DNA from: Candidatus Cloacimonetes bacterium HGW-Cloacimonetes-2
GTDB lineage: Bacteria; Cloacimonadota; Cloacimonadia; Cloacimonadales; Cloacimonadaceae
Length of the DNA: 64,000 bases
Direction: 5' to 3'
Assembly: GCA_002842035.1 (NCBI GenBank)
Contig: PHBP01000004.1
Coordinates: forward strand, 124,001 to 188,000
Made by a program: the position numbers and the translations under genes
In this document: one piece after another, positions 2,071 to 60,444 of the stretch
How the letters are laid out: the number at the start of each line of letters is the position of its first letter
How positions within the stretch are numbered: position 1 is the first letter of the stretch
The notes under the pieces: generated by a model
What the model saw: the letters and a program-made list of their open reading frames with translations, nothing else
Databases searched by the model: none
What the model was told of the DNA's origin: nothing

Positions 2071-2497
2071 TTTGATACAACTCCGTTTCGTCCCGGGAGC
2101 CGAGCAGCTCCATTCTGGCATCGTCCTGACGCAAATACTCGGATAGGCTGCGCAGGATCTTCATATATTCCTGATTGGAGTGTTGAGGCACGGCAATCAG
2201 AAACACGATTTTGACCGGAAGTTCATCTATGGATACAAATTCCAGCGGTGTCTTGAGCAGGCATACTGCTATACGGAGACAGGAGACCGTTAGATCACGG
2301 GCATGGGGAATTGCAAGTTCCCGCCCGATCCCGGTGCTCATAATCTCCTCTCTGCCTTTAACGGCCGCCGCAAATCTATCCGGAAACATCAGACATCCGC
2401 TTTCGGACAGCAGATTGACCATATAGTCTAGGCACTCGTTTTTGGTCCCAAAATGATCCACAATCCTGACCAAATCGGAGTGAAATAGTTTATTCAT
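2024..2497 (-). CDS. PTS EIIA type-2 domain protein (PtsN/FruA-like)
   Basis: A 157-residue single-domain protein matching the mannitol/fructose-type EIIA fold. The motif GREEIMSTGIGRELAIPHAR carries the phospho-accepting histidine at residue 65 in IPHA. Single EIIA proteins without a membrane EIIBC usually act as regulators (EIIA-Ntr type), receiving phosphate from HPr or NPr. No sugar permease lies nearby, which favours a regulatory role; this is inference. It lies between a histidine kinase and the porV-like gene, all on the minus strand, and its 3' end overlaps porV by 47 bp, suggesting translational coupling. Confidence 0.82.
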   Translation of the reverse strand: MNKLFHSDLVRIVDHFGTKNECLDYMVNLLSESGCLMFPDRFAAAVKGREEIMSTGIGRELAIPHARDLTVSCLRIAVCLLKTPLEFVSIDELPVKIVFLIAVPQHSNQEYMKILRSLSEYLRQDDARMELLGSRDETELYQNVQKIETVIAAQLGA

Positions 2498-2601
2498 CGT
2501 CTCACCATCAATAATCTTAGTGTTCGAACCAGCATTTTAATCTTGGCTCAGACGTCAACCTCTTTTAGGCTGATACCCCCAAACAATATCCAAACAGATA
2601 G

Positions 2602-3789
2602 TTAGCAACATTTCCCGCAGGTACAGGGAAGCCCCAAAGGCAGGAATAACTCCACCTTGGTCCCTTTCTTGAGCTTGCTTTCGAGGTGAATTTCCCCACC
2701 AAGCTGCTCCAAATAGTTCTTTACAAGGATCAAGCCCATACCTTTGCCAATTTCGTTGGCAGTGCCTTTTCTGGGCGAATCCTGATTATCGTCAAATATC
2801 CCCGCCAGGACTGATCTGGGTATGCCAATGCCCTGATCAGTCACCCTGATCCACAGCTTCTGCTCCATAATCCCGCTTTCGATTTTGATTAACTGGTCGT
2901 AATCTGAGTACTTGATTGCATTTGATACGATATTGCGCATCACGGAGCTCAAGAGCCTGAGATCGGTAATCACGTGCAGCTCTTCCTCTATATCAAATTC
3001 AAAGCGGATCTGCTTGTCGCTGGAATGTTTAAAGAGAGAATACAGGACATCCGAGATCATCTTTCTGATGTGGATCCGGCTGGGATTGAGCTTTATCCCG
3101 CCCGCTTGTATGCGAGACCACTCCAAAAGATTGTCCAGATGGTAGTTGATTGATTGTGCCGAACTGTGGATCTGGCTACAAAAATCCACGATCTGATCCA
3201 CACTCATATTTTCCTTGTTATAAGTAATAAATTCAGCCAGACTGATGATCGCATAGATAGGATTTTGCAGGTCGTGCGCTATTATATTGAAGAATTTATC
3301 TTTCAGGGTATTGTATTTCTTCAAGTCTTGTGTGATAGCCAGCAGCTTTGCCTCCGTCTCTTTTTTATAGGAGATATCGCCGATCACGCCATCCAGATAG
3401 ACAGCTTCGCCCAGCTCGTTGTATATTGCATTACCTTGCTCCCATACCCACAGCATCTTGCCGGACTTGTGTCTCAACCGGTATTCGAGCTGAAACTGGG
3501 TGCGCGTTTCAACGGCTTTGGTAATCGTATTGGAAACGTAGTCTATATCATCCTCATAGATGAGATCTACAAACGAGATGGCTTCATTGTAGAGTAGCTC
3601 TTCCGGCTGATGTCCCGTGAGCCGGATACAACCCTCGGAAAGAAATAGCATTGTCCACTGCTTGTCATAGACGCAGCGATATACAATTCCCGGAAGATTG
3701 TGCAAAAGATTAGCCATCAGCTCCGGTAAAAGCTGATTGTAAGAGCTTACTCCATCTTTTTCAAACTGGCTTATAACTTGATTCTTCAT
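2602..3789 (-). CDS. PAS-domain sensor histidine kinase, soluble, with cysteine-rich C-terminal tail
   Basis: 395 residues with no membrane segment, so probably cytoplasmic. A PAS domain spans about residues 28-145 (PAC part YRLRHKSGKMLWVWEQGN). A HisKA domain follows, with H-box histidine 172 (FFNIIAHDLQNP), and then a HATPase domain with N-box N286/N290 (MRNIVSNAIKYS), G1 DQGIGIP from 318 and G2 GKGMGL from 348. All catalytic motifs are present. Unusually, the protein ends PCTCGKCC, with cysteines at 389, 391, 394 and 395. No response regulator is adjacent, so the partner is elsewhere. A TTGACA box lies 43 nt upstream. The start is ATG 3789, with an AAGGA-type ribosome binding site. Confidence 0.9.
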   Translation of the reverse strand: MKNQVISQFEKDGVSSYNQLLPELMANLLHNLPGIVYRCVYDKQWTMLFLSEGCIRLTGHQPEELLYNEAISFVDLIYEDDIDYVSNTITKAVETRTQFQLEYRLRHKSGKMLWVWEQGNAIYNELGEAVYLDGVIGDISYKKETEAKLLAITQDLKKYNTLKDKFFNIIAHDLQNPIYAIISLAEFITYNKENMSVDQIVDFCSQIHSSAQSINYHLDNLLEWSRIQAGGIKLNPSRIHIRKMISDVLYSLFKHSSDKQIRFEFDIEEELHVITDLRLLSSVMRNIVSNAIKYSDYDQLIKIESGIMEQKLWIRVTDQGIGIPRSVLAGIFDDNQDSPRKGTANEIGKGMGLILVKNYLEQLGGEIHLESKLKKGTKVELFLPLGLPCTCGKCC

Positions 3790-3832
3790 AATAAATCCTT
3801 GGTCGTTTATACTGCTGATACTTAGCTCACTT

Positions 3833-3838
3833 TGTCAA
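3833..3838 (-). promoter_or_regulatory. TTGACA box upstream of histidine kinase
   Basis: An exact TTGACA on the minus strand, 43 nt before the kinase ATG. No TATAAT-like hexamer lies at 16-18 nt. A TATCAG lies 12 nt and a TATAAA 21 nt downstream of the box. It is one of nine such correctly oriented boxes in the window. Confidence 0.35.
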
Positions 3839-3909
3839 TATCTTTTTCTTTGAGTTTTTGCTTTTCCCCTGTTTTTGGTATCTGTAGTGGGGGTTTTTTG
3901 GATCACAGC

Positions 3910-4110
3910 TTGCTGCTTGAATCCTCTGGTGATCCTCTGGTGATCCTCTGGTGATCCCCTAGTGGTGACAAGGGGATCTCCAGAGCAGTACAGGAGTTTC
4001 ACGTGGGATTCCTATAGGGAAGAATTGAACAATGAGTAAAGGAGGAAGGAGCTTTTACCACAGAGAAAGCTGAGTAGAGCGGAGAACGGCAGAGGGAGGG
4101 GGCTGCGCAT
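3910..4110. repeat. Dispersed intergenic repeat, copy A, with 11-bp tandem units
   Basis: This fills most of the 3790-4176 gap, which has no gene. It contains four 11-bp tandem units at 3920-3963 (consensus GATCCTCTGGT or GATCCCCTAGT), followed by a GGTGACAAGGGGATCTCC-type stretch and a purine-rich core at 4034-4070 that reads into ACCACAGAGAAAG. The same order of blocks recurs at 38215-38410 (copy B), and the core alone recurs near 50574-50617 (copy C). Function is unknown. It lies just upstream of gatE. Confidence 0.7.
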
Positions 4111-4176
4111 CAAATGCCTTGACGATTATCAAAGCCGAGAAAATGATGCCGCAGCGATCGAATAAGAGGTTTCCAA

Positions 4177-6156
4177 ATGAATATTCAGGAAAATCGGGAA
4201 AAGACCCGTAAACAAGTAGGCTGGATCGAGCTAAAAGATGCAGACAACAGCACATACCAAAACCTGGGCTTTATGTGCGGGCTGGAAGTGCATCAGCAGA
4301 TATACACGGAAAAGAAGCTGTTTTGCCGCTGCAAAGCAGGTCTATATCACGACTTTAACGATTACGATGCGGAGATTGTGCGGCATATGCGCCCCACCTT
4401 AAGCGAACTGGGTGAATACGACGGCACTGCCCTGATGGAATTCAAGACCCGCAAAAAGATCATTTACCGCATCAAAAACGATACCGCCTGCACCTATGAA
4501 ATAGACGATACTCCGCCTTTTGTGATCAACAGGGAAGCCCTCAGAAACGCTATGACTATCGCTCTCCAGCTCAAGACCAAGATCGTGGGAGAGCTCCATA
4601 TCACTCGCAAACAATACCTTGATGGCAGCATCCCGACAGGATTTCAACGTACTGCAATCATTGGAATAGAGGGAGAAATCCCCATCTCAAACAAGATGAT
4701 CCGCATCATCCAATTCAGCATCGAGGAAGATAGCTGCCGCGAAGTCTCAGATCATCGCCACACCAGGGTTTATTATGCAGATAGACTCGGGATGCCGCTC
4801 TGTGAAGTGGTGACCTATCCCGATATGCTGACGCCTTGGGAAGCAGCCGAAGCCGGATATCGCATCCGTTACCTTACCCGCAGCACAAACAAGGTGCGCA
4901 AAGGGATCGGAGCCGCTCGTCAGGATGTAAACGTCAGCATCACCGGCGGTACACGCATAGAGATCAAAGGCGTGGCACATATCTCCTGGATACCCAAGCT
5001 TACCCACAATGAAGCTTTTCGCCAGAAAGCCCTGCTCGAGATCAGAAAAGAGATAAGAAAACGCTGTGGCGAGGGAAAAGACTGGAAACTGCAATACAAA
5101 GAGCTTCCTGCTGACGATTGGAAGCATATTCCAATGCTCAAAAAAGCCAGTACCGAATGCTGGAAACTGATCGCGATCAATCTGCCTGATTTTGGAGGAT
5201 TGCTATCCTTCTTTACCCAGCCGGGACAGTCTTTTGCCACCGAGATCGCCAATCGTCTCAAAGTGATCGCCTGTCTGGAAGAGCCCAATATCTATCACAG
5301 TGAAGAGCTGGAGCCCACTCTTGGCGAGCAGGACATTAAGAACCTGAAGGCTTTCCTGAAGAGTGGCGAGCGCGATGCCCAGATCTTGCTATGGACTCCC
5401 GATGAGGATTTGAAGACAGCGATCGAGACCATTGAAGAGCGTTGCAAAATGGCATTTATCGGGATACCCAACGAGACCCGCAAATCTCTGCCCAATGGCA
5501 CGACCATCTTTGAGCGAGTCCTGCCAGGAGCGGACAGAATGTATCCGGATACGGATTCTGCACCTATCCCGATCGACGATATGATGATCGAGGAAGCCAG
5601 AAAAGACCTGCCGGTGGAACTCAGCATCAGGATGGATCAGCTTGCCCAGTGGCAGGTGCCAATCGATGCCTATGCCTATATCTTGAGGAACAACCTGATG
5701 CCAATCCTGGAAGCAGCTTCGAGTGAACTTGCTATAGCTCCCAAAGAGCTGGCACTGTGCTATGCGCACAGGCTCAAATCCTATCAGGCAGATAGACCTC
5801 TGCCCTTTGCTTATGACAGAATTATCGATCTTTACCGATATATCAAAAAGAACAAGCTGGAGCGCCAGATCCTGAAGCCGATGCTAAAGACGCTCTACCA
5901 CAATCCCAATATGCAGTTTTCCTCCATCCTTGCTACTGTGGGTTACAAGCCCTGCAAAGCGGAGGATATTCTGGAGCAGATACCGCTCTTACATGCGATG
6001 TTTGGCAAGCTGAAACACCGCTGTGTCGATCAGCGCAAAGCTGAGATCAATTGGATTATGGGCAGGCTCAAGGGAGTTGCTTTGGGCAATCTGGAGCCCG
6101 CAGAATTACGCAAGAGAATTGAAGCAGTGGTCGATGCGGAGGTGGCAAATGCTTGA
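4177..6156 (+). CDS. gatE: Glu-tRNA(Gln) amidotransferase subunit E (archaeal-type GatE)
   Basis: 659 residues. GatE is the kinase/transamidase subunit that converts Glu-tRNA(Gln) to Gln-tRNA(Gln), using ammonia delivered by GatD. The GatB/E signature GLEVHQQI lies near residue 35. The GatE-type motif RQDVNVSI...IEIKGV follows, and the AspRS-like (GAD) insertion that separates GatE from GatB is present (PGQSFATEIANRLKVIA and PGADRMYPDTDSAPI). A C-terminal YqeY-like helical tail completes it. The length is slightly above archaeal GatE (about 600-630). It starts at ATG 4177 after AAGAGG and overlaps gatD by 8 bp. GatDE is considered archaeal, whereas bacteria normally use GatCAB, so its presence beside bacterial core genes is odd. 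Confidence 0.93.
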   Translation: MNIQENREKTRKQVGWIELKDADNSTYQNLGFMCGLEVHQQIYTEKKLFCRCKAGLYHDFNDYDAEIVRHMRPTLSELGEYDGTALMEFKTRKKIIYRIKNDTACTYEIDDTPPFVINREALRNAMTIALQLKTKIVGELHITRKQYLDGSIPTGFQRTAIIGIEGEIPISNKMIRIIQFSIEEDSCREVSDHRHTRVYYADRLGMPLCEVVTYPDMLTPWEAAEAGYRIRYLTRSTNKVRKGIGAARQDVNVSITGGTRIEIKGVAHISWIPKLTHNEAFRQKALLEIRKEIRKRCGEGKDWKLQYKELPADDWKHIPMLKKASTECWKLIAINLPDFGGLLSFFTQPGQSFATEIANRLKVIACLEEPNIYHSEELEPTLGEQDIKNLKAFLKSGERDAQILLWTPDEDLKTAIETIEERCKMAFIGIPNETRKSLPNGTTIFERVLPGADRMYPDTDSAPIPIDDMMIEEARKDLPVELSIRMDQLAQWQVPIDAYAYILRNNLMPILEAASSELAIAPKELALCYAHRLKSYQADRPLPFAYDRIIDLYRYIKKNKLERQILKPMLKTLYHNPNMQFSSILATVGYKPCKAEDILEQIPLLHAMFGKLKHRCVDQRKAEINWIMGRLKGVALGNLEPAELRKRIEAVVDAEVANA

Positions 6157-7531
6157 TATCTTCAAAGGCTACAAAGGCGCAGCGCTCGAGACCCTGAAAC
6201 GCTTTCAGGTAAGGGTTTGGGGCGATACAACGATCGAGACTAAACGTGGCACTTTCCAGGGCATCATCCTGCCCAGATCAGAAAACGACGATGACAAGCA
6301 TATCGTGATCAAGCTGGTGACCGGCTACAACGTTGGCATAGACATCGATACAATCACATCGATGACCGAGACCGGTTATAAAGAAGCTCATTACAAGATC
6401 CCGGAGCGGGAATTTCCCACTACGCCAAATCTGCCCAAGGTAAAGCTCTTTGGCACGGGTGGGACAATCGCCTCCAGGCTGGATTATCGCACAGGAGCGG
6501 TGATTCCTGCCTTTTCCCCGGGCGAGCTCTATGGCGCAGTGCCGGAGCTGGCAGATATCTGCAATTTGCAGACCGAAAAGCTCTTTGCGGTCTTCTCTGA
6601 AAATATGGGGCCGGAGCAGTATAAAAAACTGGCAGTTTCCATAGGCGAGGAGATAAGTAAAGGAGTAGATGGCATCATCATCGGGCATGGAACCGATACG
6701 ATGCATCATACAGCCGCAGCTTTGTCTTTTATGTTGCAGGATATACCTGTGCCGATCGTGATGGTGGGCTCGCAGAGATCTTCAGACAGACCTTCTTCGG
6801 ATGCCGCTCTGAACCTGATGCATGCAGCTACCGCTGCCGGACACGGCGATATCGCGGAGGTAATGGTCTGTATGTTTGGGCCAACAAGTGATGAATATGG
6901 GCTCTTGCATCCCGGAACAAGGGTGCGCAAGATGCACTCATCCTATCGATCCACCTTCAGGACTATCGGGGATATTCCTCTGGCAACCGTTACCCGGGAA
7001 GGTGTGAAGCCATTAAAGCCGGATTACAATCCCAGGCGTAGCGATCACAACGTTAAAGTCCTGCCTTTCTTTGAAGAGAGAGTGGCAATCGTCTATTACT
7101 ACCCAAATATGCATCCTGACATTATAGATTCGCTTACCGATAACGGCTACAAAGGCATCGTGATCGCCGGAACGGGATTGGGACACATCAACAAACCTGT
7201 CTATCCCGCCATCCGCAGAGCGGTCGAGAAGGGTGTTCATATTTATATGACAGTACAGACGCTTTGGGGTTACGTCCATATGTTTGTATATGATACCGGA
7301 CGCGATCTGATGAGTATGGGAATCGTCCCGGCGGAGAATATGCTGCCGGAAGTGGCGTATATCAAGCTGGGCTGGGCTTTGGGACAAAGTAACGATCCTC
7401 AGGTGGTCAGAGACCTCATGCTAAAGCCAATTGCCGGGGAAATCACCGATGGTGAGCCTTACAATGGCTATCTGGTCTTCCAGGGTGGAATCGAAGAGGT
7501 CGAAGAATTCATCAGGAAGTTCCATAAATAG
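6149..7531 (+). CDS. gatD: Glu-tRNA(Gln) amidotransferase subunit D (archaeal-type GatD)
   Basis: 460 residues. GatD is an asparaginase-like glutaminase that frees ammonia for GatE. An N-terminal SH3-like GatD domain (residues 1-90) precedes an L-asparaginase fold. Catalytic motifs are GTGGTIAS (nucleophile T103) and GHGTDTM (T182, D183). The N-terminal extension and the pairing with gatE distinguish it from a free asparaginase. The ATG at 6149 overlaps the gatE stop and has a GGAGG about 6 nt upstream; a longer open frame back to 6023 runs inside gatE and is not used. The pair forms a translationally coupled operon. Confidence 0.93.
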   Translation: MLDIFKGYKGAALETLKRFQVRVWGDTTIETKRGTFQGIILPRSENDDDKHIVIKLVTGYNVGIDIDTITSMTETGYKEAHYKIPEREFPTTPNLPKVKLFGTGGTIASRLDYRTGAVIPAFSPGELYGAVPELADICNLQTEKLFAVFSENMGPEQYKKLAVSIGEEISKGVDGIIIGHGTDTMHHTAAALSFMLQDIPVPIVMVGSQRSSDRPSSDAALNLMHAATAAGHGDIAEVMVCMFGPTSDEYGLLHPGTRVRKMHSSYRSTFRTIGDIPLATVTREGVKPLKPDYNPRRSDHNVKVLPFFEERVAIVYYYPNMHPDIIDSLTDNGYKGIVIAGTGLGHINKPVYPAIRRAVEKGVHIYMTVQTLWGYVHMFVYDTGRDLMSMGIVPAENMLPEVAYIKLGWALGQSNDPQVVRDLMLKPIAGEITDGEPYNGYLVFQGGIEEVEEFIRKFHK

Positions 7532-11712: not shown

Positions 11713-14517
11713 ATGAGAAAAGGATGGCTTATTTTATTAGCCCTCGTCGCTTTCACAGCGATGCTTGTTGCCGGAAACCCCGGCCGCTACGAGGTTGTCC
11801 ACTATTCGGAAGATTTCGAAAGTGGAGCAACCGGCTGGACCCACTACGACGGTGGACAAGCCCCCAGCAACTGGCATATTTATAACAACGGTGATGCTCA
11901 AGGCAACGTATGGTGGATGGGCGACCCCGCTCTTGCATCCGGTGCCAACATCGGTGGTTATCATGATCACCAGTATGTTGTGTTGGATACACCTGCCCGC
12001 ACCCTCAGCAGCGCCAATGCCACACTTACTTTCAAACTTCGTTACAACGTCGAAGCCACATCCGGTGCCACTGCACCTTATACCGGCTGGGATGCATGCA
12101 ACGTAAGAGTTTCCACAGACAACGGTGCCACTTGGACACCTATCTCAGGAACTCCTGCCTACAATATGACATCTGCTTATTCCTTTGGTTTTGAGCATGG
12201 TGAAGGTCCGAACATCCCCGGTTGGGGCGGCGTCCAAGCTACTTGGGCAAATGCCACATTCAATCTGAGCGCATACGTTGGCCAGTCAGTCAAGATCAGA
12301 TTTGCTTTTGCTTCTGATCCTGCTTACAGCACCGGCGATGCCCCCGCAATGTTTGGTATGATGGTTGATGATATCGCTTTTGGCGGTTACAGCAACAATG
12401 GTACTGACGACGGCCAGATGACCTGGGCAAGTATGGTTCCCCTGGGTGGAGATCTGTGGCACATCGCAACTGATGCCCTCGCTCCCTCACCCAGCAACGT
12501 GATGGCTTGCACAAACACCCAAGGCACTTACAACCCCAATATGATGAACTACCTTGTAAGCCCTCCGATCCAGTTGCCCACAACCGGCGACATCAGAGCC
12601 GACTTTATGATCAAGGGTTCATTCACCGATCCCAACACCTTCCCCGAAGTTGATTACTTTGGCTGGGAAATCTCTGTAAACAACGGTACCACCTGGTTTG
12701 CGATGAGTAATCCCTTCAACGATCCTGCCGGAAGTAGCTATGTCTATTCAGACGCTCCGCCTGAATGGTCATCAATGACCGAAAGCTATACCCTTACCGG
12801 TATTCTTTCACCCAACTATGCAGGTGAAACTGCTATCTTCCGTTGGTACTTCAAGTCTGATGCCGATACCCCCAGTGGAACCGGTATCTTTATCGATGAT
12901 TTCAAGATCTACAACGATATCTTCATCGCTGAGCCCGAAAACCTGGCTGCAACAGTCAATGGTGACGACGTTACCTTGAACTGGACAGTTCCCGGTGGCG
13001 GTGGCGGTGGCGAAGAAGGCTGGCTGAATTATGACGGCGAAAATGCCGGAAACTCAGTCGGTACCAATGGCGTTGCCGATTTTGACGTTGCTGCCAAATG
13101 GGATCCCGTTGGCGAGCATGGTATCTCCCCGTGGGTCGGAATGAATATCACCAAGATCAAGTTCTTCCCCGCCGAGCCTACCAACCTGTGCACCTACACT
13201 GTCCGTATCTGGACCGGTGCTGCCGGTAACATCGCTTACGAGCAAGCAGTTGCTGCTCCTCTGATCGACCAGTGGAACGAAATCGTCCTCACCACCCCCT
13301 GGACCATTCCTTCAGGTCAGATTGTGATGGCAGGTTATCGTTGCAATGCCACCGGTGGTTATCCTGCCGGTACCGATGCTGGTCCCCAGGTCGAAGGTTA
13401 TGGCAATATGATCCGCTTCAACAACGCCTGGACCACCCTTTCCGCTCTGGCTGCCACGCTTACTTACAACTGGAACATCCGCATCTACGTGCAGGATGCC
13501 GCCGGCCGTGAGTATGTACTTGGTCAGGAATATCCTACCAACAACCAGTTTGCAGAAGGCACTCTTGCAGTGAACCAGGAACGCGATCGCGACGTTACAG
13601 CTTACAAGATCTATCGTAACACCATCCTGATCGACGAAATCCCCGGAACACAGCTTACTTACACCGATATGAACGTTGAAGGCGGACTTCACACTTACTA
13701 TGTGACCGCTATGTACGGCACCAACGAATCCCTCGCTTCCAATACCGCCGTTGCTTTCGTGCTGCCCACAATGCATGCCGAACTTTCCAACGACGACGGC
13801 AATGCCGAAGCCGGATACTCTGTCGGTTCAACCCGCCAGATGGCTGCCAAATACAATTACAATCAGCCTGTAACCGTGAAGTATGCCAAGGTCTTTGTCC
13901 ACACTCAGGGCACTGCCAGCATCATCATTCGCGTGTTTGACGACAATGGCACAGACGGAATGCCCGGAACTCAGCTTGCTCAGTTCCAGTATCCTGCCGC
14001 CAACGTCACAGCCGGCTGGAATTATATTACACTTCCCGATGGTATCGTGGTTGATGATGGTAGTTTCTATATTGCCATCCTTGAAACCACCGGTGCTTCT
14101 CAGATCGGCTTGGACAACAACAACAATGGCCACAGCTACAAGAAGATCACCACCAACTGGGAACCCATCACCGAAGGCGATGTGATGATCCGTGCGATCG
14201 TGCAGTATTCCACTGCAAATGATGATGGCAGCGTGACCCCTGTGGTCTTTGCCGCCAACAACTATCCCAACCCCTTCAACCCCACCACCACCATCGCTTA
14301 CAGCGTGCCTACCAGCTCACAGACCACCCTTAGAGTTTACAACATCAAGGGTCAGCTTGTCCGCACCCTGGTGAATGGACTTACAACCGCCGGAAACCAC
14401 AGTGTTACTTGGAATGGTACCGATGACAATGGTTCCTCCGTTGCCAGCGGCGTCTATTTCTACAGACTGAATTCCGCCGGACAGACCATCACCAAGAAGA
14501 TGGTACTCTCCAAATAA
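11713..14517 (+). CDS. Secreted multidomain surface protein with FlgD-like C-terminal sorting domain
   Basis: 934 residues. A signal peptide (residues 1-20, ending near LVAG) leads into beta-rich choice-of-anchor-type modules (YSEDFESGATGW, MMVDDIAFGGY), repeated twice. An FN3-like segment near 415-435 holds a hexaglycine hinge, and further beta-sandwich modules follow. Residues about 855-934 form a FlgD-Ig-like tail (YPNPFNPTTTIAYSVP, then VYNIKGQLVRTL, ending KKMVLSK). Such tails mark cargo of type IX-like secretion in the FCB group. The gene has its own promoter, a near-perfect ribosome binding site (AAGGAGGA) and a terminator. Its codons strongly favour C-ending forms (AAC, ACC, TAC), which suggests high expression. 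Binding target unknown. Confidence 0.88.
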   Translation: MRKGWLILLALVAFTAMLVAGNPGRYEVVHYSEDFESGATGWTHYDGGQAPSNWHIYNNGDAQGNVWWMGDPALASGANIGGYHDHQYVVLDTPARTLSSANATLTFKLRYNVEATSGATAPYTGWDACNVRVSTDNGATWTPISGTPAYNMTSAYSFGFEHGEGPNIPGWGGVQATWANATFNLSAYVGQSVKIRFAFASDPAYSTGDAPAMFGMMVDDIAFGGYSNNGTDDGQMTWASMVPLGGDLWHIATDALAPSPSNVMACTNTQGTYNPNMMNYLVSPPIQLPTTGDIRADFMIKGSFTDPNTFPEVDYFGWEISVNNGTTWFAMSNPFNDPAGSSYVYSDAPPEWSSMTESYTLTGILSPNYAGETAIFRWYFKSDADTPSGTGIFIDDFKIYNDIFIAEPENLAATVNGDDVTLNWTVPGGGGGGEEGWLNYDGENAGNSVGTNGVADFDVAAKWDPVGEHGISPWVGMNITKIKFFPAEPTNLCTYTVRIWTGAAGNIAYEQAVAAPLIDQWNEIVLTTPWTIPSGQIVMAGYRCNATGGYPAGTDAGPQVEGYGNMIRFNNAWTTLSALAATLTYNWNIRIYVQDAAGREYVLGQEYPTNNQFAEGTLAVNQERDRDVTAYKIYRNTILIDEIPGTQLTYTDMNVEGGLHTYYVTAMYGTNESLASNTAVAFVLPTMHAELSNDDGNAEAGYSVGSTRQMAAKYNYNQPVTVKYAKVFVHTQGTASIIIRVFDDNGTDGMPGTQLAQFQYPAANVTAGWNYITLPDGIVVDDGSFYIAILETTGASQIGLDNNNNGHSYKKITTNWEPITEGDVMIRAIVQYSTANDDGSVTPVVFAANNYPNPFNPTTTIAYSVPTSSQTTLRVYNIKGQLVRTLVNGLTTAGNHSVTWNGTDDNGSSVASGVYFYRLNSAGQTITKKMVLSK

Positions 14518-31275: not shown

Positions 31276-34200
31276 TTATTGAGGTTCCATCAAGTCAGTC
31301 TGAGTATTGGTGCTGGTGGATGGGCTGGAAGGATTGCAGGCTACAACTTTGAAGAAGATCCTGCCACTGGTTGTCGTATCGATGCTGAGGGTGTGGACTG
31401 GTGCAGTGACGCTTATGTAGCCGGGGGACCAGTTTACCAGATCTTCCGAGCTATAGACGTGGTATTCTGTGGCTCCTGCAACTGAATCCCAGCTAAGGAT
31501 AACATCGCTGTTGGAAGAGCTGATACTGACGTTGGGGGTATCCAGAAGCCCGTCAGGCGTATATATGGGAGGCCCTACGAAATCATCCAGCCACAATGCA
31601 AACAAGTCATAGCTCAAGGCTCGAATGGCAACATAGACCACGGCATTGCCATAAGCATCCAGATTGTAGGTCTTTTGATTCCAGGTTGGATTGGCTAGCC
31701 CACTGTCGATCATGGTGAAGGACGCGGGATTGGTATCAGTGGTGGAAACCAGCACTTCCCAGGGATCAGAATAATACCCATTCATCCAGAAGCTGATAGT
31801 ATCGACGCGGGAAGCGCTCAACATCAATGGGGGAGTGATGATCCAATCGTTGCTCTCCTCATAGCTTTCATACCAGACTTGAATGCCGTGTGAGCCATTG
31901 TGAGCAAAGTTGCTAGCCGAAATGCTCCATTGATTTGTGCCAGAGTCAGCGTTCAGGACAGTCCAATTGGCAGGGATTATGCCAGATTCAAAACCTTCAT
32001 TCAACATTTCCCTGGGTGTAATAGTTACAGCCAAACTGGGGCTGATGTCGTTTGCCGGAACCGTATCTCCTGGCAATGCTACTTCGGCATAGAGATTGGC
32101 AGTCCCAAGGTAGATGGCATCCGGGGTCCAATTAAACGTATGGGTGGTGGAGGCATATCCTCCTAAAGCCGGCATTGCGAAAGAAGCCAGGGTTGCTTCG
32201 GGAGATTGACATTTCAGATACACAGTGTAGCCGCTCTGCAAGGCAAAGCCATTGTTTTGGATGCCGACGGTGTAATCATAAGGCCTGGCGATAGCGATCG
32301 CGGAAGGTCCTGTGATGGAGGTGGCGGCAATATCCAGATTGCTTGATGTATATAGCGGTGGGCCAAACACATCATCCAACCAGATTCCGTTCTCATTGTT
32401 TCCGCGATAACGAATGGCAAGATAGATCATGGCACCGCCAAAAGAATCCAGATTATAGTTCGGGCTGAATACCTGAAGATCTGGGATGCTAGAGCTTCCT
32501 ATCGCAGTAAATGAAGCGGGTTGAGTGTCTGTGGTGGAAACGAGCACTTCGAATTCTTCGGGATAGTTTGAATAGATCTTACGCAGTGAAAACCGGAAAT
32601 TATCTGGGACAATCTCGCTTCCACCCAATCTGGGACTGATCAGCCAATCATCATTCTGGCGGGAGGGCTCTGCAAAGATGCAAGCCGAAACTGCCCCTGT
32701 GATGACATTGATGTTGCTCACTGACCAGCTCTTTGTGCCTCCATCCAGATTGAGGACAGTCCATCCACCCGGTATGGCTCCGGATTCAAAACCTTCAGTC
32801 AAAGCACCCTCAGGCAGGGTGACAAATGAATACACGGCATTGTTTGAGGAGTGCTCACCCTGAGCTTCGGCTATAACTGACCAATAATAGGTAGTAGATG
32901 GCTGCAGTCTGGACGCTTCCGGCAAGGTAAAGCTGGTGGCGGGTGCCTCAACCACTGCGCTGAGATTGTCCAGTGTGGGAGGATTGACGGTGCTGACGCA
33001 AAGTTTGTATGAACTGGGCGGAATACCGGCGGATGGTGCTGTCCAGCCAAAGCTTGCCAGGGTGTTTACAAAGGTGGCTTGATCGAGCGGTAAATTCAGA
33101 GTGACCGGATTGGGAGCTGTGACGCTGAGTTTCACATCATCCAGGGCGAGATAGTTTGTGCTGCCGCCAATGTATCCCTTGATCCCCAGATAATAGGTTC
33201 CGGAACCGGAGGGAGTGAAGCTTCCGGCTATCCGTTTGTACTCACTCGTATCAAGGAAGGTGGGTTCGGCAATGCTATTGGTCATGGCAACAATAGTTGG
33301 ATCAGTGCCGTAATAAATCCCCATCTGGGCATAGTTTGGATTTGTTGATTGTTGACGGGCATAGAGCTCAACATCATAAGTGCGCGAACCAACCAACGTG
33401 ATGGGATGGAACAACCAGGATACTGCCGTCGCTCCGTCTGAATGGAATAGATAGACGTTGAACTCGCCGGTTCTGGGTTCCAAGCTTCCAGAATAGGTTG
33501 AATTTGCAGTCCAGGGGCTGGATCCAGTTTCCATGGCCAGAGTCCACTCCGAGATATTGGAAGTGCCGTCGATGCATCCTACCTCAAAGCTCTCCGTAGC
33601 AAATTGGTCTCTTTGGATATGGAAGCTCTGGGTGGCTGGAGCAGGGCTGGCTGTGCCCGCCAAAGAATAGGCCACGACAGTCCAATACCAGTTTTCTCCA
33701 TAGCTGAAGCCAAACCCAGCTTGTGCCACAGGATTGATGGTTACGCTGGTTAGGTTGGTGATAGTGTGTTGGCCGGGATATCCGCTATTGAAGATTTGTG
33801 CGGGATCATCTTTGACCAGATAGATAGTGTAATGGTCTGGCACAAGTCCAACTGGATTGGGAGACCAGACGAAGCTGAAGCTGTCCTTGTTTACTCCATA
33901 AGCATTGTTGGCTGGAGACACTAAAACAGGGCTTTTAATCTGGGAAGCATATCTCCAGGCCAGATCTGGATAACCGCTGTTATCCAGAGGGCTGAGATTC
34001 CAATAGTCGTTGCTGCCATTAGTAGTCTCTACTGTAAAATCCCATCCGGTGAAAGTGGACTGGGTCTTCATCTGAGCGGTGGTCTTGCCTGTCCCGCCAT
34101 AAGAAGTTGCCTGTCCGCTGGTCTGGGTATCCCAGTAAGAGCTGATAACGCTTCCGCCACTGGAACCAAGCAAACCACCTTTTTGTCCTCCGGAAACCGT

Positions 34201-36213
34201 CCCGGTAGAATAGCTATTGATGATCGATCCGGTTGCACCTTGATTGCCCACCACACCGCCAATAAAGTGCGCTCCGATGACGTTTGCATGGGAATAGCTG
34301 TTATTGATGCTTCCCTGGTTTTGACCCACAAGTCCCCCAATGGAATTCTGATTGCTGCTTATGCTCCCGGAAGAAAAGCTTCTGTTGATGGTTCCATCAT
34401 TCCAGCCCACCAATCCACCACACCAGGTGCTTCCGGTTATTGTGCCTGTGGAATTGCAGTTAGTGATAGCAGCGCCGGTTTCGTTTCTGCCTGCGATGCC
34501 ACCCAGGCCGTTAGCTGTAACGCCGGCGCCGGATCTCGAGACAGTGCCGGTAAAAGTGCAGCCTATGATGGAGCCGGCATTGTTGTTTCCGCAGATTCCT
34601 CCACCTGTTGTTGCATTGCCGATGTTGACTGCTGCCGCCGAACTGCAATTCTCGATGCTGCCTTTATTGTGACCCACTATCGAGCCTGTATCGGCATCAC
34701 CGAGGATACTGCAAGTGCTGCTCAGATTCAGGTTTTTGATAGTGCTCCCAACGGCAGTCATTCCAAACAAACCGTGATAGCTTCCGTAATAAGCTGTGCG
34801 GAGGTTGGAGATAGTGTGCCCATCTCCGTCCAAACCACCGTAAAACATATTGGTGTTGTTTCCAATGGGAAGCCAGCCATTGGTGCCCCAGGCTGCATAC
34901 CCTTCTCCGCCTGGAGATAGGTAGGAAAGCAAGTCAATGTCGCTGATCAATTTGAAATAAGTGCGGGAAGAGGCAGAGCCCGGATAGTTGCGGATCAGGT
35001 TCAGTTCCCTGGCATTGCTCACGGTGAACGGATCTGTCTGGGTTCCGGTGCCGGAAGCAAAGTAGTTCTTCTCAAACTTGATATTGTCTACATAGAGCCT
35101 GCCGTTGTAAGCGCTGGTACCCAGGAAGCGGATCTGTTTCGTTCCGGGCGGAAGATCAAAGGTGCGGCTTGCCCACTCTGTGGAGGCAGGAGCCCATTGT
35201 GCTCCAGAGTGAGGAGCAGCGGTGGCCATACCTCCTCCGGTTCCGGCATTGTATGAGGCAAGAGTAGTAAACGAAAGACCGTAATCCAGGGAATATTGGA
35301 TGTCCAGCCGCTCATTGGCATTGGGAGCCAGATAGGGGGAATAGGCATAGTCATAGCTTAGCTTCCCGCCATAATCACCCAGATTCAGATTTGGGGTGGT
35401 GAGGACGATTTGCCGGTCGGCAAGAACGTTTTCAAAAGAACAGAGAGCGCTTCCCGTTCCACTGGCTCCATACGCGTTGCTGTTGCCGCGCCACCAGGCA
35501 TTCAGACCTGGAGCCTCCCATGTGTTTGGCACCGACCAGTATGAGGGAGGGAAGGTGGTCGAAGCAAAGGTCTGAGTCGAAGGGAAAGTGCTGATGGACG
35601 TATCCTGATACTGCACACTGAAATCATCAACGTACCAGGCGGGCCCCCAAGCACTGATTCCATTAAACCAAATAAAGATCTCCTGCCCTGCCCATCTGCT
35701 CAGATCGATGCTTTCCGATACACCCGTACCCGGGTATCCAATGCTATTTTCCGGAATGGTGTAACCATCATTTGAATTGAAGGCAGTTCCAAAGCGTTCC
35801 CACACTTTAGTGTAATTGCTTTCGTTTACATATACGTAAACAGCACCGTAGTCGTAATTATTTTCAGTCCTCTGACCATGAGACCACTTGAAATTCAATC
35901 TGTACTGTGACCCTGGAATTATGATCCAAGGAGTCCATAGGCTCCTACCCTGACCTATCCAGTAATCGTTAAAAAAGCAGCAGGCTTGACTATGGTAAAC
36001 TTGCCAGGGTAAAGGGTCGGCATAGCCGTTATCATTAAATGACCAATCTTCCGGAATAGTGCCGGGGGCAACGCTATTGAAATCTTGCGAATAAGGGGCT
36101 GTATAGACGATGCGGGTTTGTGGCAGATAACTCTCTAAGTTGAGAGGTTCAAGCGCATATGCTGAGAAGATCATAAGCGACATTGCGAGCAGCAACAGGT
36201 TCTTTCTTGTCAC
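31276..36213 (-). CDS. Giant secreted surface protein with GLUG repeats and choice-of-anchor modules
   Basis: 1645 residues from a GTG start at 36213, chosen because AAAGGAG lies 9 nt upstream and a signal peptide follows at once (VTRKNLLLLAMSLMIFSAYA). N-terminal choice-of-anchor J-type modules (EDWSFNDNGY, WYVDDFSVQY) lead to a GLUG-repeat beta-solenoid at about residues 480-710 (GGLVGWNDGTINRSFSSGSI and similar). FN3-like modules follow, then two closely similar C-terminal modules (EGFESG.IP..WTVLN ... WLDD..GPP.Y). It ends in an FN3-like domain and a Ser/Thr-rich tail (SSPSTSTNTQTDLMEPQ), without the FlgD-type sorting domain seen in the 934-residue protein. It is likely cell-surface; ligand unknown. 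Confidence 0.85.
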   Translation of the reverse strand: MTRKNLLLLAMSLMIFSAYALEPLNLESYLPQTRIVYTAPYSQDFNSVAPGTIPEDWSFNDNGYADPLPWQVYHSQACCFFNDYWIGQGRSLWTPWIIIPGSQYRLNFKWSHGQRTENNYDYGAVYVYVNESNYTKVWERFGTAFNSNDGYTIPENSIGYPGTGVSESIDLSRWAGQEIFIWFNGISAWGPAWYVDDFSVQYQDTSISTFPSTQTFASTTFPPSYWSVPNTWEAPGLNAWWRGNSNAYGASGTGSALCSFENVLADRQIVLTTPNLNLGDYGGKLSYDYAYSPYLAPNANERLDIQYSLDYGLSFTTLASYNAGTGGGMATAAPHSGAQWAPASTEWASRTFDLPPGTKQIRFLGTSAYNGRLYVDNIKFEKNYFASGTGTQTDPFTVSNARELNLIRNYPGSASSRTYFKLISDIDLLSYLSPGGEGYAAWGTNGWLPIGNNTNMFYGGLDGDGHTISNLRTAYYGSYHGLFGMTAVGSTIKNLNLSSTCSILGDADTGSIVGHNKGSIENCSSAAAVNIGNATTGGGICGNNNAGSIIGCTFTGTVSRSGAGVTANGLGGIAGRNETGAAITNCNSTGTITGSTWCGGLVGWNDGTINRSFSSGSISSNQNSIGGLVGQNQGSINNSYSHANVIGAHFIGGVVGNQGATGSIINSYSTGTVSGGQKGGLLGSSGGSVISSYWDTQTSGQATSYGGTGKTTAQMKTQSTFTGWDFTVETTNGSNDYWNLSPLDNSGYPDLAWRYASQIKSPVLVSPANNAYGVNKDSFSFVWSPNPVGLVPDHYTIYLVKDDPAQIFNSGYPGQHTITNLTSVTINPVAQAGFGFSYGENWYWTVVAYSLAGTASPAPATQSFHIQRDQFATESFEVGCIDGTSNISEWTLAMETGSSPWTANSTYSGSLEPRTGEFNVYLFHSDGATAVSWLFHPITLVGSRTYDVELYARQQSTNPNYAQMGIYYGTDPTIVAMTNSIAEPTFLDTSEYKRIAGSFTPSGSGTYYLGIKGYIGGSTNYLALDDVKLSVTAPNPVTLNLPLDQATFVNTLASFGWTAPSAGIPPSSYKLCVSTVNPPTLDNLSAVVEAPATSFTLPEASRLQPSTTYYWSVIAEAQGEHSSNNAVYSFVTLPEGALTEGFESGAIPGGWTVLNLDGGTKSWSVSNINVITGAVSACIFAEPSRQNDDWLISPRLGGSEIVPDNFRFSLRKIYSNYPEEFEVLVSTTDTQPASFTAIGSSSIPDLQVFSPNYNLDSFGGAMIYLAIRYRGNNENGIWLDDVFGPPLYTSSNLDIAATSITGPSAIAIARPYDYTVGIQNNGFALQSGYTVYLKCQSPEATLASFAMPALGGYASTTHTFNWTPDAIYLGTANLYAEVALPGDTVPANDISPSLAVTITPREMLNEGFESGIIPANWTVLNADSGTNQWSISASNFAHNGSHGIQVWYESYEESNDWIITPPLMLSASRVDTISFWMNGYYSDPWEVLVSTTDTNPASFTMIDSGLANPTWNQKTYNLDAYGNAVVYVAIRALSYDLFALWLDDFVGPPIYTPDGLLDTPNVSISSSNSDVILSWDSVAGATEYHVYSSEDLVNWSPGYISVTAPVHTLSIDTTTSGRIFFKVVACNPSSPSTSTNTQTDLMEPQ

Positions 36214-36343
36214 GATGAGATACTCCTTTAACTCTGATGGATAACATATTGCGGTTGCTGGGCGTACTCCCAATCATTATTCGGCTCAATCAGCGCAATC
36301 CTATGATCAGATTTTGGCGGAAGAAAGTTTACAATTAGTTTTT

Positions 36344-44297: not shown

Positions 44298-45050
44298 CTA
44301 TTTATCCAGATTGTTCTTGAGTAACTGGAGCTCCGGAACCTCGCGGAAAGGCTTTGCCGGACTGCCCAGGACTATTGTTGCTTCCGGGACGTCTTTGCTG
44401 ACCACTGCGGCAGCAGCAACCACTCCGTCCGAAGCAATCGTCTTGCCGGGAAGGATAGTGGCATTTACACCGATTCTGGCACCCCGCTTCAGGGTCACCC
44501 CCTTGAAGTGGGTAAAACGCTCTTTATCCCTAGCCATATAGTTATCGTTGCTGGTGGCCACACAGGGAGCTACAAAGCAGTAATCCTCCACTGTTGAATA
44601 GGCTGTGATATAGCTGTTTGTCTCGAATTTATTACGATCGCCGATAGTGACGAAGTTCTCAATGGATACGTTTCTGCCGATGATATTGAGGGTACCGATC
44701 GTAACATTCTCTCGCAGAGTCGCCATATCAGCGATCAGGTTGCGCTCACCTATCTTGCAGCCTGCATAGATTACGACATTAGCACCAATCTGGCAAAACG
44801 AGCCCACCATAGCAGGAGCTAGATCGGTCGGCACTTTGAAGATACTACGCGGTGAAGAAAGAGGAAGCTTACCGATAATAGTATTGTCATCTATACGGAC
44901 ATTATCACCAATCACAGATCCCTCGTGAATCACGACGTTACTGCCAATCAGGCAGTTCTCCCCTATACGGACATCGTCCATTATCACGACGTTGAATCCC
45001 AGTTTTACGCCATCCTTCAAGACGGCTTTTGCTGATACATACTGATTCAT
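44298..45050 (-). CDS. Hexapeptide-repeat acyltransferase/sugar N-acyltransferase-like
   Basis: 250 residues forming a left-handed beta-helix, with many [LIV]GxxxX hexads from residue 20 to about 225 (IGENCLIGSNVVIHEGSVIG and so on). A lid (DNYMARDKERFTH) and the C-terminal GSPAKPFREVP resemble WbbJ-type O-acetyltransferases. I chose ATG 45050, which has GGAGG 5 nt upstream; an in-frame start at 45074 has none. It is the first gene of the glycan operon and is divergent from the xer gene with a 77-bp gap. Acyl donor and acceptor are unknown. Confidence 0.85.
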   Translation of the reverse strand: MNQYVSAKAVLKDGVKLGFNVVIMDDVRIGENCLIGSNVVIHEGSVIGDNVRIDDNTIIGKLPLSSPRSIFKVPTDLAPAMVGSFCQIGANVVIYAGCKIGERNLIADMATLRENVTIGTLNIIGRNVSIENFVTIGDRNKFETNSYITAYSTVEDYCFVAPCVATSNDNYMARDKERFTHFKGVTLKRGARIGVNATILPGKTIASDGVVAAAAVVSKDVPEATIVLGSPAKPFREVPELQLLKNNLDK

Positions 45051-45127
45051 ATTTCCTCCAGCAGGTGAATCCAATATTTTTCTTTACAAGTAATAAGGCA
45101 AGGAAAAAATGCAGAAGAGGTTCGATT

Positions 45128-46054
45128 ATGACTCTTAGCAACCAAGAACTGCTGATCAAATTCACAGATCGTCTCGCCACTGAGGGAAAGTCCCGCAGGA
45201 CTATCTCCGGCTACCAGCTCGATCTGGAGCAGTTTTGCGCTTACATATCGCAAGCCTCGCCCACATCGGAGCTACCACTGGCAAACGCCAAGGCGCAGAT
45301 GATCAAGGGCTTTATGCACTGGCTATATCAAAAGGGCGATACAAATCGCAGCATCTCCCGCAAGCTCTCTGCTTTGAATAAATTCTACACGTGGCTGAAA
45401 CTCGAAGACTATATCGAGTCCAGCCCGATGGATCGCATCAAGCGTCCCAAGTTCCAAAAGAAACTCCCCAAACACTTTACCGAAGACGAGATGAAGACAC
45501 TGCTCTCCATCCCCGATCTCGAGGACAAATTTGGCATTCGCAACAAAGCTATGCTGGAACTGATCTATTCCTCAGGGCTCCGTTTGATGGAGCTGGCTGC
45601 TGTGCGCATTCAGGATATCGATCTGCATCGCGGCCTGATCCGCCTCAGAGGCAAAGGCAGTAAAGAACGTATCGTACCGGTGGGAGATCCAGCCATCGCT
45701 GCCATCCGTGAATACATCAAGATACGCTCCACTTTCGGGGAGAACCAGGATCCCGATAAGCTCTTTCTTACTCACACCGGCAAAGCTTGGGATTCCAAGC
45801 AACTTGGCCTCATCCTTCAGAGATACCTCAGCCTGGTAGCCCAGCAGGAAGGCTATACCCTTCACACATTGAGGCACAGCTTTGCAACTCATCTGCTCCA
45901 GCGTGGAGCGGATATCCGGGCTATCCAGGAAATGCTGGGGCATTCCAAACTATCAACCACAGAGGTTTACACCCACGTCACAATTGATGACATTAAAAAG
46001 GAATACCTGAGGGCACATCTCCGCTCCAAAGATCCCGGAGATACAAAAGCTTAG
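45128..46054 (+). CDS. Tyrosine recombinase, XerC/XerD family
   Basis: 308 residues, normal for Xer. An N-terminal SAM-like core-binding domain (5-90) precedes the catalytic domain with R152 (SSGLRLMELAA), K176 (RGKGSKER), H246-x-x-R249 (HTLRHSFATH), H272 (GHSKLST) and Y281. It probably resolves chromosome dimers at dif. I chose ATG 45128 (AAGAGG upstream); the frame is open back to 45029 but that part overlaps the divergent acyltransferase start. Its stop overlaps the convergent lipoprotein stop by three bases. No dif-like site was recognised nearby, and no phage genes flank it. Confidence 0.93.
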   Translation: MTLSNQELLIKFTDRLATEGKSRRTISGYQLDLEQFCAYISQASPTSELPLANAKAQMIKGFMHWLYQKGDTNRSISRKLSALNKFYTWLKLEDYIESSPMDRIKRPKFQKKLPKHFTEDEMKTLLSIPDLEDKFGIRNKAMLELIYSSGLRLMELAAVRIQDIDLHRGLIRLRGKGSKERIVPVGDPAIAAIREYIKIRSTFGENQDPDKLFLTHTGKAWDSKQLGLILQRYLSLVAQQEGYTLHTLRHSFATHLLQRGADIRAIQEMLGHSKLSTTEVYTHVTIDDIKKEYLRAHLRSKDPGDTKA

Positions 46055-52906: not shown

Positions 52907-54163
52907 TCACCCGCTCTGCAGACCGTCTATCCACACCGTAAAAGCCTCTCCAATACTTTCCTGCCATTTTGTTATGTTCGTATTGATCGGGATGTAGATA
53001 ACGCTACACTCCACATTGATCCCAGTATTGGTCTTGTTTGAGAAGTGACCCCCAACAGACGCACAATCCCCAGGGTAAACCAGGGCGACTTGTTCAGTTT
53101 TCATTATACCTGCATAGGAAAACATTTGTTGGAGATCACCAGAGGAAGGCTTTGAATCTGTTGGGGTTTTCCATTTTGTGTCCCAGATCCAAGTGACTGA
53201 ATTGTCTCTACTTTGAATTACTATGTCTGGTCTGATCTCTGACCTAAGTCTTCCAGATTCCCAAAACTCATGCCTCACCTGGGGTCTTATCGAGTAATCC
53301 CCTTTTCCACCTAACTGCTTTCTCAGGCTTTTAAAGACAAACCCCTCCCACAGCATGTTCATGTCAAACATCAGAGCCAGGACATTATTCCTACCGCTCT
53401 GAATGTCCGGATGATAGTTCAAGAGCAGCAGCTTTGCAATATCGATCGCTTTGCGATACCTTTCTGTTTGTCTATTGAAGCGTAGCCTTGCGAAGGTATC
53501 AGCAGTGACCTTCATCCGAGGCATTTCCGGGAACGATAGCTCCAATTGGCAGATGCGGCTATGAAGGGAAGCTTTGCAACACAATATCTTAATCAGACTT
53601 ATAGCCTGATACAGAATGATATGCCACACATGTTCGTGGTCGTAAATAGTGTTTCTGGTATAGAACCGTTCCTGATGCACAAGGTTTTTTTGGATTTGCC
53701 GGGAGAAAATCAACCTACCCTTCAGGGCGTACTGGTTGCTATCGTTACTGCGGTATTTCCTCACCAATCCAGTTCTAAGCAGGTACTCCACTTCTTTGAT
53801 GAAGATCTCAAAATACATCTCGAGTATGGAGTTTGGCTTGAGCTTCAGGTTGCTATCGCCGGTCGTCTGGGCATCCAAATCATTTACAACGCGCAACATA
53901 CTGATCAGAATCTGTTGCCATTTACCCTTATCCGGCTTGCTTTCCCTATCAGTCTTGGGCAGAACCTCGATGATGGTGCTGCCGACCTGGATCACTCCCA
54001 CATACTCACAAAACTTGATGCCTTTATTAATCAGTTTGTAATAGGGAAAATCCTTTCCGGAGCCAAAAAAAGTCTCCAGGGCATTTAGCTCAGTTTCAGC
54101 GAGACCGTCCTCTATTCTCAGGCACTGATGTTCGAAGACTTGTCTAGGATTGTTCTTGGCCAT
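52907..54163 (-). CDS. mcrC: McrC, nuclease subunit of the McrBC restriction system
   Basis: 418 residues. The family N-terminus (FCEYVGVIQVGSTIIEVLPK) and central blocks are present. A PD-(D/E)XK-type site lies near residues 305-335 (RPDIVIQ... IWDTKWK), with aspartate in the E position as McrC often has. McrC cleaves DNA when stimulated by McrB GTPase, which translocates between modified sites. It overlaps mcrB by 20 bp, so translation is coupled. It is the last gene of the island. Confidence 0.92.
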   Translation of the reverse strand: MAKNNPRQVFEHQCLRIEDGLAETELNALETFFGSGKDFPYYKLINKGIKFCEYVGVIQVGSTIIEVLPKTDRESKPDKGKWQQILISMLRVVNDLDAQTTGDSNLKLKPNSILEMYFEIFIKEVEYLLRTGLVRKYRSNDSNQYALKGRLIFSRQIQKNLVHQERFYTRNTIYDHEHVWHIILYQAISLIKILCCKASLHSRICQLELSFPEMPRMKVTADTFARLRFNRQTERYRKAIDIAKLLLLNYHPDIQSGRNNVLALMFDMNMLWEGFVFKSLRKQLGGKGDYSIRPQVRHEFWESGRLRSEIRPDIVIQSRDNSVTWIWDTKWKTPTDSKPSSGDLQQMFSYAGIMKTEQVALVYPGDCASVGGHFSNKTNTGINVECSVIYIPINTNITKWQESIGEAFTVWIDGLQSG

Positions 54164-56180: not shown

Positions 56181-56298
56181 TCTATCTCCTATCTACTTTT
56201 TATCTCATTATTGGTATCATCTGCTTATCTGCTAAACCCTATCCATCTGAATGACTCACATTGCAGAGGTCATAATCACAATGTTATTTAATGCTTGG

Positions 56299-56637
56299 TT
56301 ATGCTTGGATCTTGTTCAGCTTCAGCAGGCGGGCTTGGATAGCCCAGTTTGTTCTGCCATGTCTCTTGGCAATAGAGGCCATATCCATTCCCGAATCAAA
56401 TTCTGCAATCAGAGAGGCCTCTTCCTCTGCTGTCCATGCATTTCCCGAATGCCCGGGAAGGCTTCCAGATCTTTTTATGCGTGATTCTGTCTTCTTTAGT
56501 TGCTCCAAAGCAGTGAATAAGGCCCGCACAGTCTCTGGATTTTGAAACACACTATCATGTTCCATCACTTCACCAGTTTGGGGGTTTACCCCATCTGCTA
56601 AGTATTGAACAATCTCAATAGCTCTTTTGAGTTCCAT
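56299..56637 (-). CDS. Small HTH/SANT-like protein of the defence island
   Basis: 112 residues. The N-terminal half (ELKRAIEIVQYLADGVNPQTG) is helical. The C-terminal half (AWTAEEEASLIAEFDSGMD, IAKRHGRTNWAIQARL) matches a Myb/SANT- or resolvase-like DNA-binding helix pattern seen in small accessory proteins near helicases and restriction genes. A strong AGGAGGT lies 5 nt before the ATG. It sits between doc and mcrB, all co-directional. It may regulate the island; this is inference. Confidence 0.7.
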   Translation of the reverse strand: MELKRAIEIVQYLADGVNPQTGEVMEHDSVFQNPETVRALFTALEQLKKTESRIKRSGSLPGHSGNAWTAEEEASLIAEFDSGMDMASIAKRHGRTNWAIQARLLKLNKIQA

Positions 56638-56688
56638 AACTACCTCCTATTTTGTTATAATATCTTGCGATTATTTTACCTGACGTGC

Positions 56689-57135
56689 CTATCTCTCATC
56701 ATCCTTGATTGCATTATAAATCTCCAGCTTGAGAGATTCTTCCTCTTCCTTACCTTCCAATAGGGCAAGAACAATTCTGGACAGAAGGTCTTTGTCTATC
56801 TTTCCAGCAGCTACGTGATAACTGATGTTCTCCATGTGATGAATGAACTTACCAGCCAATGCCAGATAACCATTTATCAACAGAAACTGAGCTCCTAATG
56901 AGATTGCTATCCGCTTGTTGCCATCAGCAAAGCAATGGAATTTGCATGCTCCCCAGATCAAGTGAGTCAATTTATCAGCAAATCTTGGATAGTAATCGTC
57001 GTTCTGTATGTGATTAAGCACGCTTTCAAGCTGACCGCTATTGATGATGCTGGTATCTCCTCCGCCACTTACACGGACTGTTAATAAGTGAGTATCAATC
57101 GCCTGCTCGATAGTGATATAGTTTACAGGCATCAT
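56689..57135 (-). CDS. Doc/Fic-family toxin
   Basis: 148 residues. The Doc form of the Fic motif, HCFADGNKR, at 67-75 keeps H67, D71, N73, K74 and R75. In P1 Doc this motif phosphorylates EF-Tu; classical Fic proteins instead AMPylate. The helical fold around FLLINGYL fits. Its first ATG overlaps the stop of the upstream HTH gene (ATGA), so the pair is coupled as in toxin-antitoxin modules. The usual Phd antitoxin is absent; the long upstream protein would have to take that role. Confidence 0.85.
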   Translation of the reverse strand: MMPVNYITIEQAIDTHLLTVRVSGGGDTSIINSGQLESVLNHIQNDDYYPRFADKLTHLIWGACKFHCFADGNKRIAISLGAQFLLINGYLALAGKFIHHMENISYHVAAGKIDKDLLSRIVLALLEGKEEEESLKLEIYNAIKDDER

Positions 57136-58154: not shown

Positions 58155-58390
58155 CTTATACTCCCTAGTAGTCCCAGATCAGATTTTTAGATTCCTCTCT
58201 AATGAGCCTATTGGCATCCACTCTCAAGATCAGAGCTGCCCCGGAGGGCAAGTTTCTTTCAACATCTATATTCATATAAGCTCCATATAGTTTTAAGAAT
58301 ATTTCAGCCACATACAGTCAATAACTATTTGGTTGGGTGAATGCTCTTGGCATGAGGGTTCACATATCAGGTATGTATCATAGTCTCTGA

Positions 58391-60388: not shown

Positions 60389-60444
60389 GGGAGTATCTCC
60401 TTATGTTTTGAAGTTCGAACGTATTTTGATATTCTCATATGTTA

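Follow-up and report, generated by a model that had tools for sequence, protein, structure and literature searches.

A GatDE amidotransferase gene pair encoded beside GlnRS in Cloacimonadota and other bacteria

The amidotransferase GatDE is stated in reviews to occur only in archaea (PMC9499178, PMC8007984), and one of these words it as ‘only in archaea missing AsnRS’ (PMC8007984). The archaeal enzyme recognises the D loop and the first base pair of its tRNA (PMC9499178). Bacterial GatCAB carries out the same Glu-tRNA(Gln) reaction, and its GatB subunit shares the kinase and transamidase cradle with GatE. According to a 2014 survey (PMC4206432), no bacterium was known to make Gln-tRNA(Gln) by both routes. 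Deinococcus, Thermus and Bdellovibrio do combine a direct synthetase with an amidotransferase for one amide amino acid, in their redundancy of AsnRS and GatCAB (PMC4206432).

Here we analyze a gatE-gatD pair from a member of the Cloacimonadota. It matches archaeal GatDE (Methanothermobacter thermautotrophicus 2d6f and Pyrococcus abyssi 1zq1) in its two subunits, their domain order and their catalytic residues, but it has a bacterial host, stands alongside GlnRS and contains a GatE that falls in its own clade and is ~30% identical to the archaeal protein (~17% in the tail). The first pair of tRNA-Gln is U1-A72 here and A1-U72 in archaea. In contrast to bacterial GatCAB, there is no GatA or GatC, ammonia would come from an asparaginase-type subunit, and GatE lies far outside GatB. 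Compared with the AsnRS and GatCAB redundancy, the amino acid is glutamine, the amidotransferase is GatDE, and no non-discriminating synthetase was identified; since glnA is present, the biosynthetic rationale for that redundancy does not apply. We found no description of bacterial GatDE in the freely accessible literature that was searched. NCBI models would name such bacterial genes GatD or GatE, so the proteins have probably been annotated already and their meaning passed without remark.

The gatE-gatD locus

The window, which is the whole 64,000-nucleotide stretch of DNA that was analyzed, comes from a genome of 2.51 Mb in 14 contigs that is 99.55% complete. Its phylum is Candidatus Cloacimonadota, since three genomes of that phylum have GatE proteins with the very sequence found in named Cloacimonadota records. 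The locus comprises the following features.

4165..4170 (hand-counted, +/- a few bases), + strand: putative ribosome binding site of gatE, the purine-rich AAGAGG in AAGAGGTTTCCAAATG, proposed from the sequence.
4177..6156, + strand: gatE, Glu-tRNA(Gln) amidotransferase subunit E, 659 aa (NCBIfam equivalog, PDB alignment, Foldseek), with a kinase and transamidase cradle at residues ~1-310, an AspRS-like insertion at ~311-470, and a helical and tail domain at 471-659.
6137..6141 (hand-counted, +/- a few bases), + strand: putative ribosome binding site of gatD, GGAGG, within the 3' end of gatE, likewise proposed from the sequence.
6149..7531, + strand: gatD, subunit D, 460 aa, with an SH3-like N domain and a type I asparaginase fold (NCBIfam equivalog).

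The start of gatD is the ATG at 6149 (MLDIFKGYKG), which is common to relatives and has GGAGG upstream; the mechanical open reading frame opens earlier, at 6023. With this ATG as the start, the last 8 nt of gatE, its stop among them, belong to both genes, and since the GGAGG of gatD lies inside the end of gatE, translation of the two genes may be coupled.

Both subunits exceed equivalog cut-offs in NCBIfam profile searches. GatE scored 473.6 bits against NF003107 (cut-off 456) and 407.2 bits against TIGR00134 (cut-off 319.6), and GatD scored 506.4 bits against TIGR02153 (cut-off 324). GatB models reached 127.8 bits on GatE at best, far under their cut-off of 338; these profile scores, together with a tree position outside GatB, rule out a mislabelled GatB. 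The archaeal GatDE structures 2d6f and 1zq1 were the best sequence matches in the PDB, with full-length alignment for both subunits and GatE aligned end to end with 2d6f_C and 1zq1_C. A Foldseek search with the AF2 model of GatE (pLDDT 80) returned 1zq1 and 2d6f as top matches, while the GatD model was poor (pLDDT 67) and was excluded from use.

A preliminary description of this DNA had identified a GatDE pair from an AspRS-like insertion in GatE and from an SH3-like N domain with T103, T182 and D183 in GatD, and our analysis bears out this assignment. The insertion motif PGADRMYPDTDSAPI is found at residues 450-464 of GatE, within the full-length alignment to archaeal GatE. GatD contains PF18195 (the N domain, above its cut-off), PF00710 and PF17763, and its T103, T182, D183 and K261, the asparaginase-type Thr, Thr, Asp and Lys, are invariant across 25 GatD proteins from several phyla. 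Eighty-six positions of GatE are shared by the three archaeal sequences and almost every bacterial one, and many of these recur in GatB; the core catalytic positions common to GatB and GatE are kept in bacterial GatE. At a further 24 positions bacterial GatE has a fixed residue that differs from the archaeal one, and some of these adjoin the EED motif; identity between bacterial and archaeal GatE is 29% in the insertion and 17% in the tail. It is very probable that the pair carries out GatDE chemistry.

Distribution, selection and origin

The preliminary description had also regarded the DNA as bacterial and not archaeal, which agrees with the bacterial-type rpoB and rpoC on the same contig. 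A chimeric contig, the concern it had raised, is very unlikely because 50 genomes of the phylum carry GatE and the pair is like its neighbours in both GC and GC3. Purifying selection on both genes is strong: in comparisons of close pairs, gatE has a dN/dS of 0.05-0.16 and gatD one of 0.01-0.04. For GatD, Cloacimonadota and other phyla share 72-78% identity, against 57-61% for GlnRS of the same genomes. The gatE-gatD genes are thus a resident, constrained pair. Across 108 loci the only conserved neighbourhood was gatE-gatD itself, with no metabolic or other conserved partner gene besides gatD.

GatE was found in 50 of 125 Cloacimonadota genomes, including 25 of the 71 high-quality ones, and numerous close relatives do without GatDE. 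GlnRS is present in nearly all of the 125 and a GatA equivalog in only one; that genome (G124, locus L064) also has a fragmentary gatE match and GlnRS. A wider scan for bacterial-type GatE patterns confirmed at least 560 loci, the best 80 of which are all bacterial. Hosts among these 80 belong to the Cloacimonadota, Bacteroidota, Zixibacteria, Acidobacteriota, Aminicenantes, Calditrichota and Ignavibacteria, and also include Clostridium tagluense and a member of the Bacteriovoracaceae. Among 42 GatE genomes from the wider scan, GlnRS was found in 40 (39 over the cut-off and one in pieces) and GatB in five, leaving 37 without it. From these counts, the usual state is GlnRS plus GatDE with no GatCAB, and GatDE beside GlnRS looks like a second route that is widespread among anaerobic bacteria and has been overlooked.

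No bacterial-type GatE was found on phages or bacterial plasmids. The one GatE-like plasmid match is haloarchaeal: a 987-kb plasmid of Natrinema thermotolerans (CP031304.1, locus L326, ~2480-4350) carries a copy that looks like a pseudogene, since it is split across two frames and unannotated.

In our tree, all bacterial GatE sequences fall together (SH-aLRT 97), distinct from archaeal GatE (99) and from GatB (100), and the branches separating them are very long; the possibility raised earlier that GatE would cluster inside bacterial GatB is thereby set aside. Archaeal GatE is represented by three euryarchaeal rows, of which two were read off printed PDB alignments and the third is the frameshifted haloarchaeal plasmid copy. 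The quick tree splits Cloacimonadota GatE, and separate origins inside the phylum are disfavoured, as a tree with a single clade fits slightly better (p-AU 0.82). One Cloacimonadota clade would suit an old gene followed by repeated loss. Bacterial GatE is a separate clade and was compared with only three euryarchaeal sequences, so the ancient transfer proposed in the preliminary description, for which it had looked to branching nested within archaea, may have taken place, or the pair may be long established in bacteria.

Gln-tRNA(Gln) machinery and the proposed role of GatDE

The preliminary description had predicted that gatCAB and glnS would both be absent and that GatDE would serve as the only, or a mixed, route of glutaminylation. 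The first part stands: GatA and GatC have no match in the window genome, and the sole GatB_N match is gatE itself. The second part and the GatDE-only route fail, since the genome encodes a canonical GlnRS (730.9 bits, cut-off 425.8). Every GlnRS active-site residue that we checked is present and identical in genomes with and without GatDE, so that no altered GlnRS active site accompanies GatDE. The single GluRS is of the bacterial, tRNA-Gln-discriminating class, not the non-discriminating kind, and keeps Arg in the Arg358 column in both groups of genomes alike. It has been reported that this type of residue rule for GluRS discrimination is not universal and depends on the phylum (PMC3927822). 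With the discriminating Arg358 present, we saw no sign of a relaxed GluRS as the source of Glu-tRNA(Gln).

These enzymes make it very improbable that GatDE is the main or sole route to Gln-tRNA(Gln) with a non-discriminating GluRS. The absence of GatCAB would fit such a role, as would two GatE-containing genomes that are more than 90% complete and have no GlnRS match (G050 and G061). However, GlnRS is as rarely missing from high-quality genomes without GatE (3 of 46) as from those with it (2 of 25), so its absence looks like assembly gaps, and for the window genome a main route is refuted unless its GlnRS is inactive.

Glutamine supply offers another conceivable reason for GatDE, namely that glutamine is made on the tRNA to make up for a missing glutamine synthetase. 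Asparagine can serve GatD-type enzymes as amide donor. An analogous use of GatCAB to supply asparagine may occur in Bdellovibrio and others (PMC4206432). Nevertheless, glutamine synthetase is present in 45 of 50 GatE-containing genomes, GatE occurs in only five of the 18 genomes that have no glutamine synthetase, and the window genome has glnA, which is unchanged by the presence of GatDE. These counts contradict glnA loss as the reason for GatDE, and we consider this explanation extremely improbable. Nine Cloacimonadota genomes from two genera (G028-G030, G032, G033, G035-G037 and G043), some of them 99% complete, showed no glutamine synthetase match.

The window genome has two tRNA-Gln genes, CUG and UUG, and we found no dedicated extra tRNA-Gln gene, including in a census of 43 tRNA genes. 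In this census, U1-A72 combined with a compact 7-nt D loop occurs only in the two tRNA-Gln and in tRNA-Asn, and the D loops of tRNA-Glu are 8-9 nt; an enzyme that reads tRNA shape could therefore separate the Gln from the Glu tRNAs. The CUG tRNA-Gln has a U13-G22 pair and is missing base 47, features that recall the GluRS1 of Acidithiobacillus (A. ferrooxidans), which is limited to tRNAs with an augmented D stem and without base 47 (PMC9976931). The same two features are found on tRNA-Gln(CUG) in genomes without GatDE, and covariation of tRNA-Gln with GatDE was rejected, its features being alike in both groups. Since GluRS Arg358 and the tRNA-Gln features are the same with or without GatDE, there is no genomic mark of a Glu-tRNA(Gln) supply.

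The tRNA-Asn, like tRNA-Gln, has U1-A72, G73 and a 7-nt D loop, which are features that an archaeal-type GatDE would read, and this resemblance may leave asparagine open as a second substrate. Action on Asp-tRNA(Asn), or on both the Asn and the Gln tRNAs, in place of GatCAB would also be in keeping with the absence of GatCAB and with a scan for AsnRS motifs that covered 1.25 Mb, half of the genome, and turned up none. However, relatives without GatDE are also without GatCAB, so the group must have AsnRS, and the AspRS sequence GWVHKRRDLGG has Leu in the position that is His in non-discriminating AspRS. Characterised GatDE is specific for Glu-tRNA(Gln). Taken together, we regard a role on Asp-tRNA(Asn) as improbable.

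Somewhat less doubtful, though still unlikely, is that the enzyme was repurposed for a substrate outside translation or for a special tRNA. The 24 positions fixed differently from archaeal GatE and the divergent tail could reflect such a change, and GlnRS alongside makes the classical role unnecessary. Against this, gatD is the only conserved partner gene, there is no additional tRNA-Gln gene, and the core catalytic positions common to GatB are kept.

On balance, we lean toward a functional bacterial GatDE that acts as a Glu-tRNA(Gln) amidotransferase in an auxiliary or repair route beside GlnRS. The functional reading is based on two neighbouring genes that are intact and overlap, on the conservation of their catalytic residues and on strong purifying selection, with GlnRS present and GatCAB absent; the further step to an auxiliary or repair role is an inference that we favour. 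GatD would free ammonia from glutamine or asparagine and pass it to GatE, which would use ATP to activate the glutamate on Glu-tRNA(Gln) and then amidate it, giving Gln-tRNA(Gln). GlnRS would supply most Gln-tRNA(Gln), and GatDE would convert the Glu-tRNA(Gln) left over from imperfect charging by GluRS. The most plausible substrate would be the CUG isoacceptor, which resembles tRNA-Glu in having a U13-G22 pair and no base 47. Several findings speak against a repair route: GluRS Arg358 and the tRNA-Gln features are unchanged by GatDE, the tail shares just 17% identity with the archaeal one, the first pair is U1-A72 and not the archaeal A1-U72, and many close relatives lack GatDE. It is possible, if rather tentative, that the bacterial branch in its many anaerobic phyla has a distinct role beyond GlnRS, for example in correcting Glu-tRNA(Gln) formed by misacylation or in amidating a different aminoacyl-tRNA, and is for this reason retained alongside GlnRS under strong selection.

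Both routes to Gln-tRNA(Gln) in one genome, repeatedly across bacterial phyla, contrast with the 2014 survey (PMC4206432) and bear on the amidotransferase complement of the last common ancestor and on why GlnRS never entered archaea. Apparent isolates, among them Clostridium tagluense A121 and Perlabentimonas gracilis, provide testable bacterial systems for the question of why both routes are kept.

Other features of the window

Elsewhere in the window, a tyrosine recombinase of the phage integrase family (45029-46051) lies amid housekeeping genes. A possible defence island at 52910-63862 contains a McrBC component, an SLFN-g3 helicase and a DISARM DrmA-like helicase, the latter with a score under the cut-off. 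A 1665-aa protein at 31279-36273 carries GLUG motifs and a cleaved-adhesin domain; a protein bearing a T9SS sorting tail (11713-14514) and a PorV/PorQ-family protein (1111-2121) point to type IX secretion in this genome.
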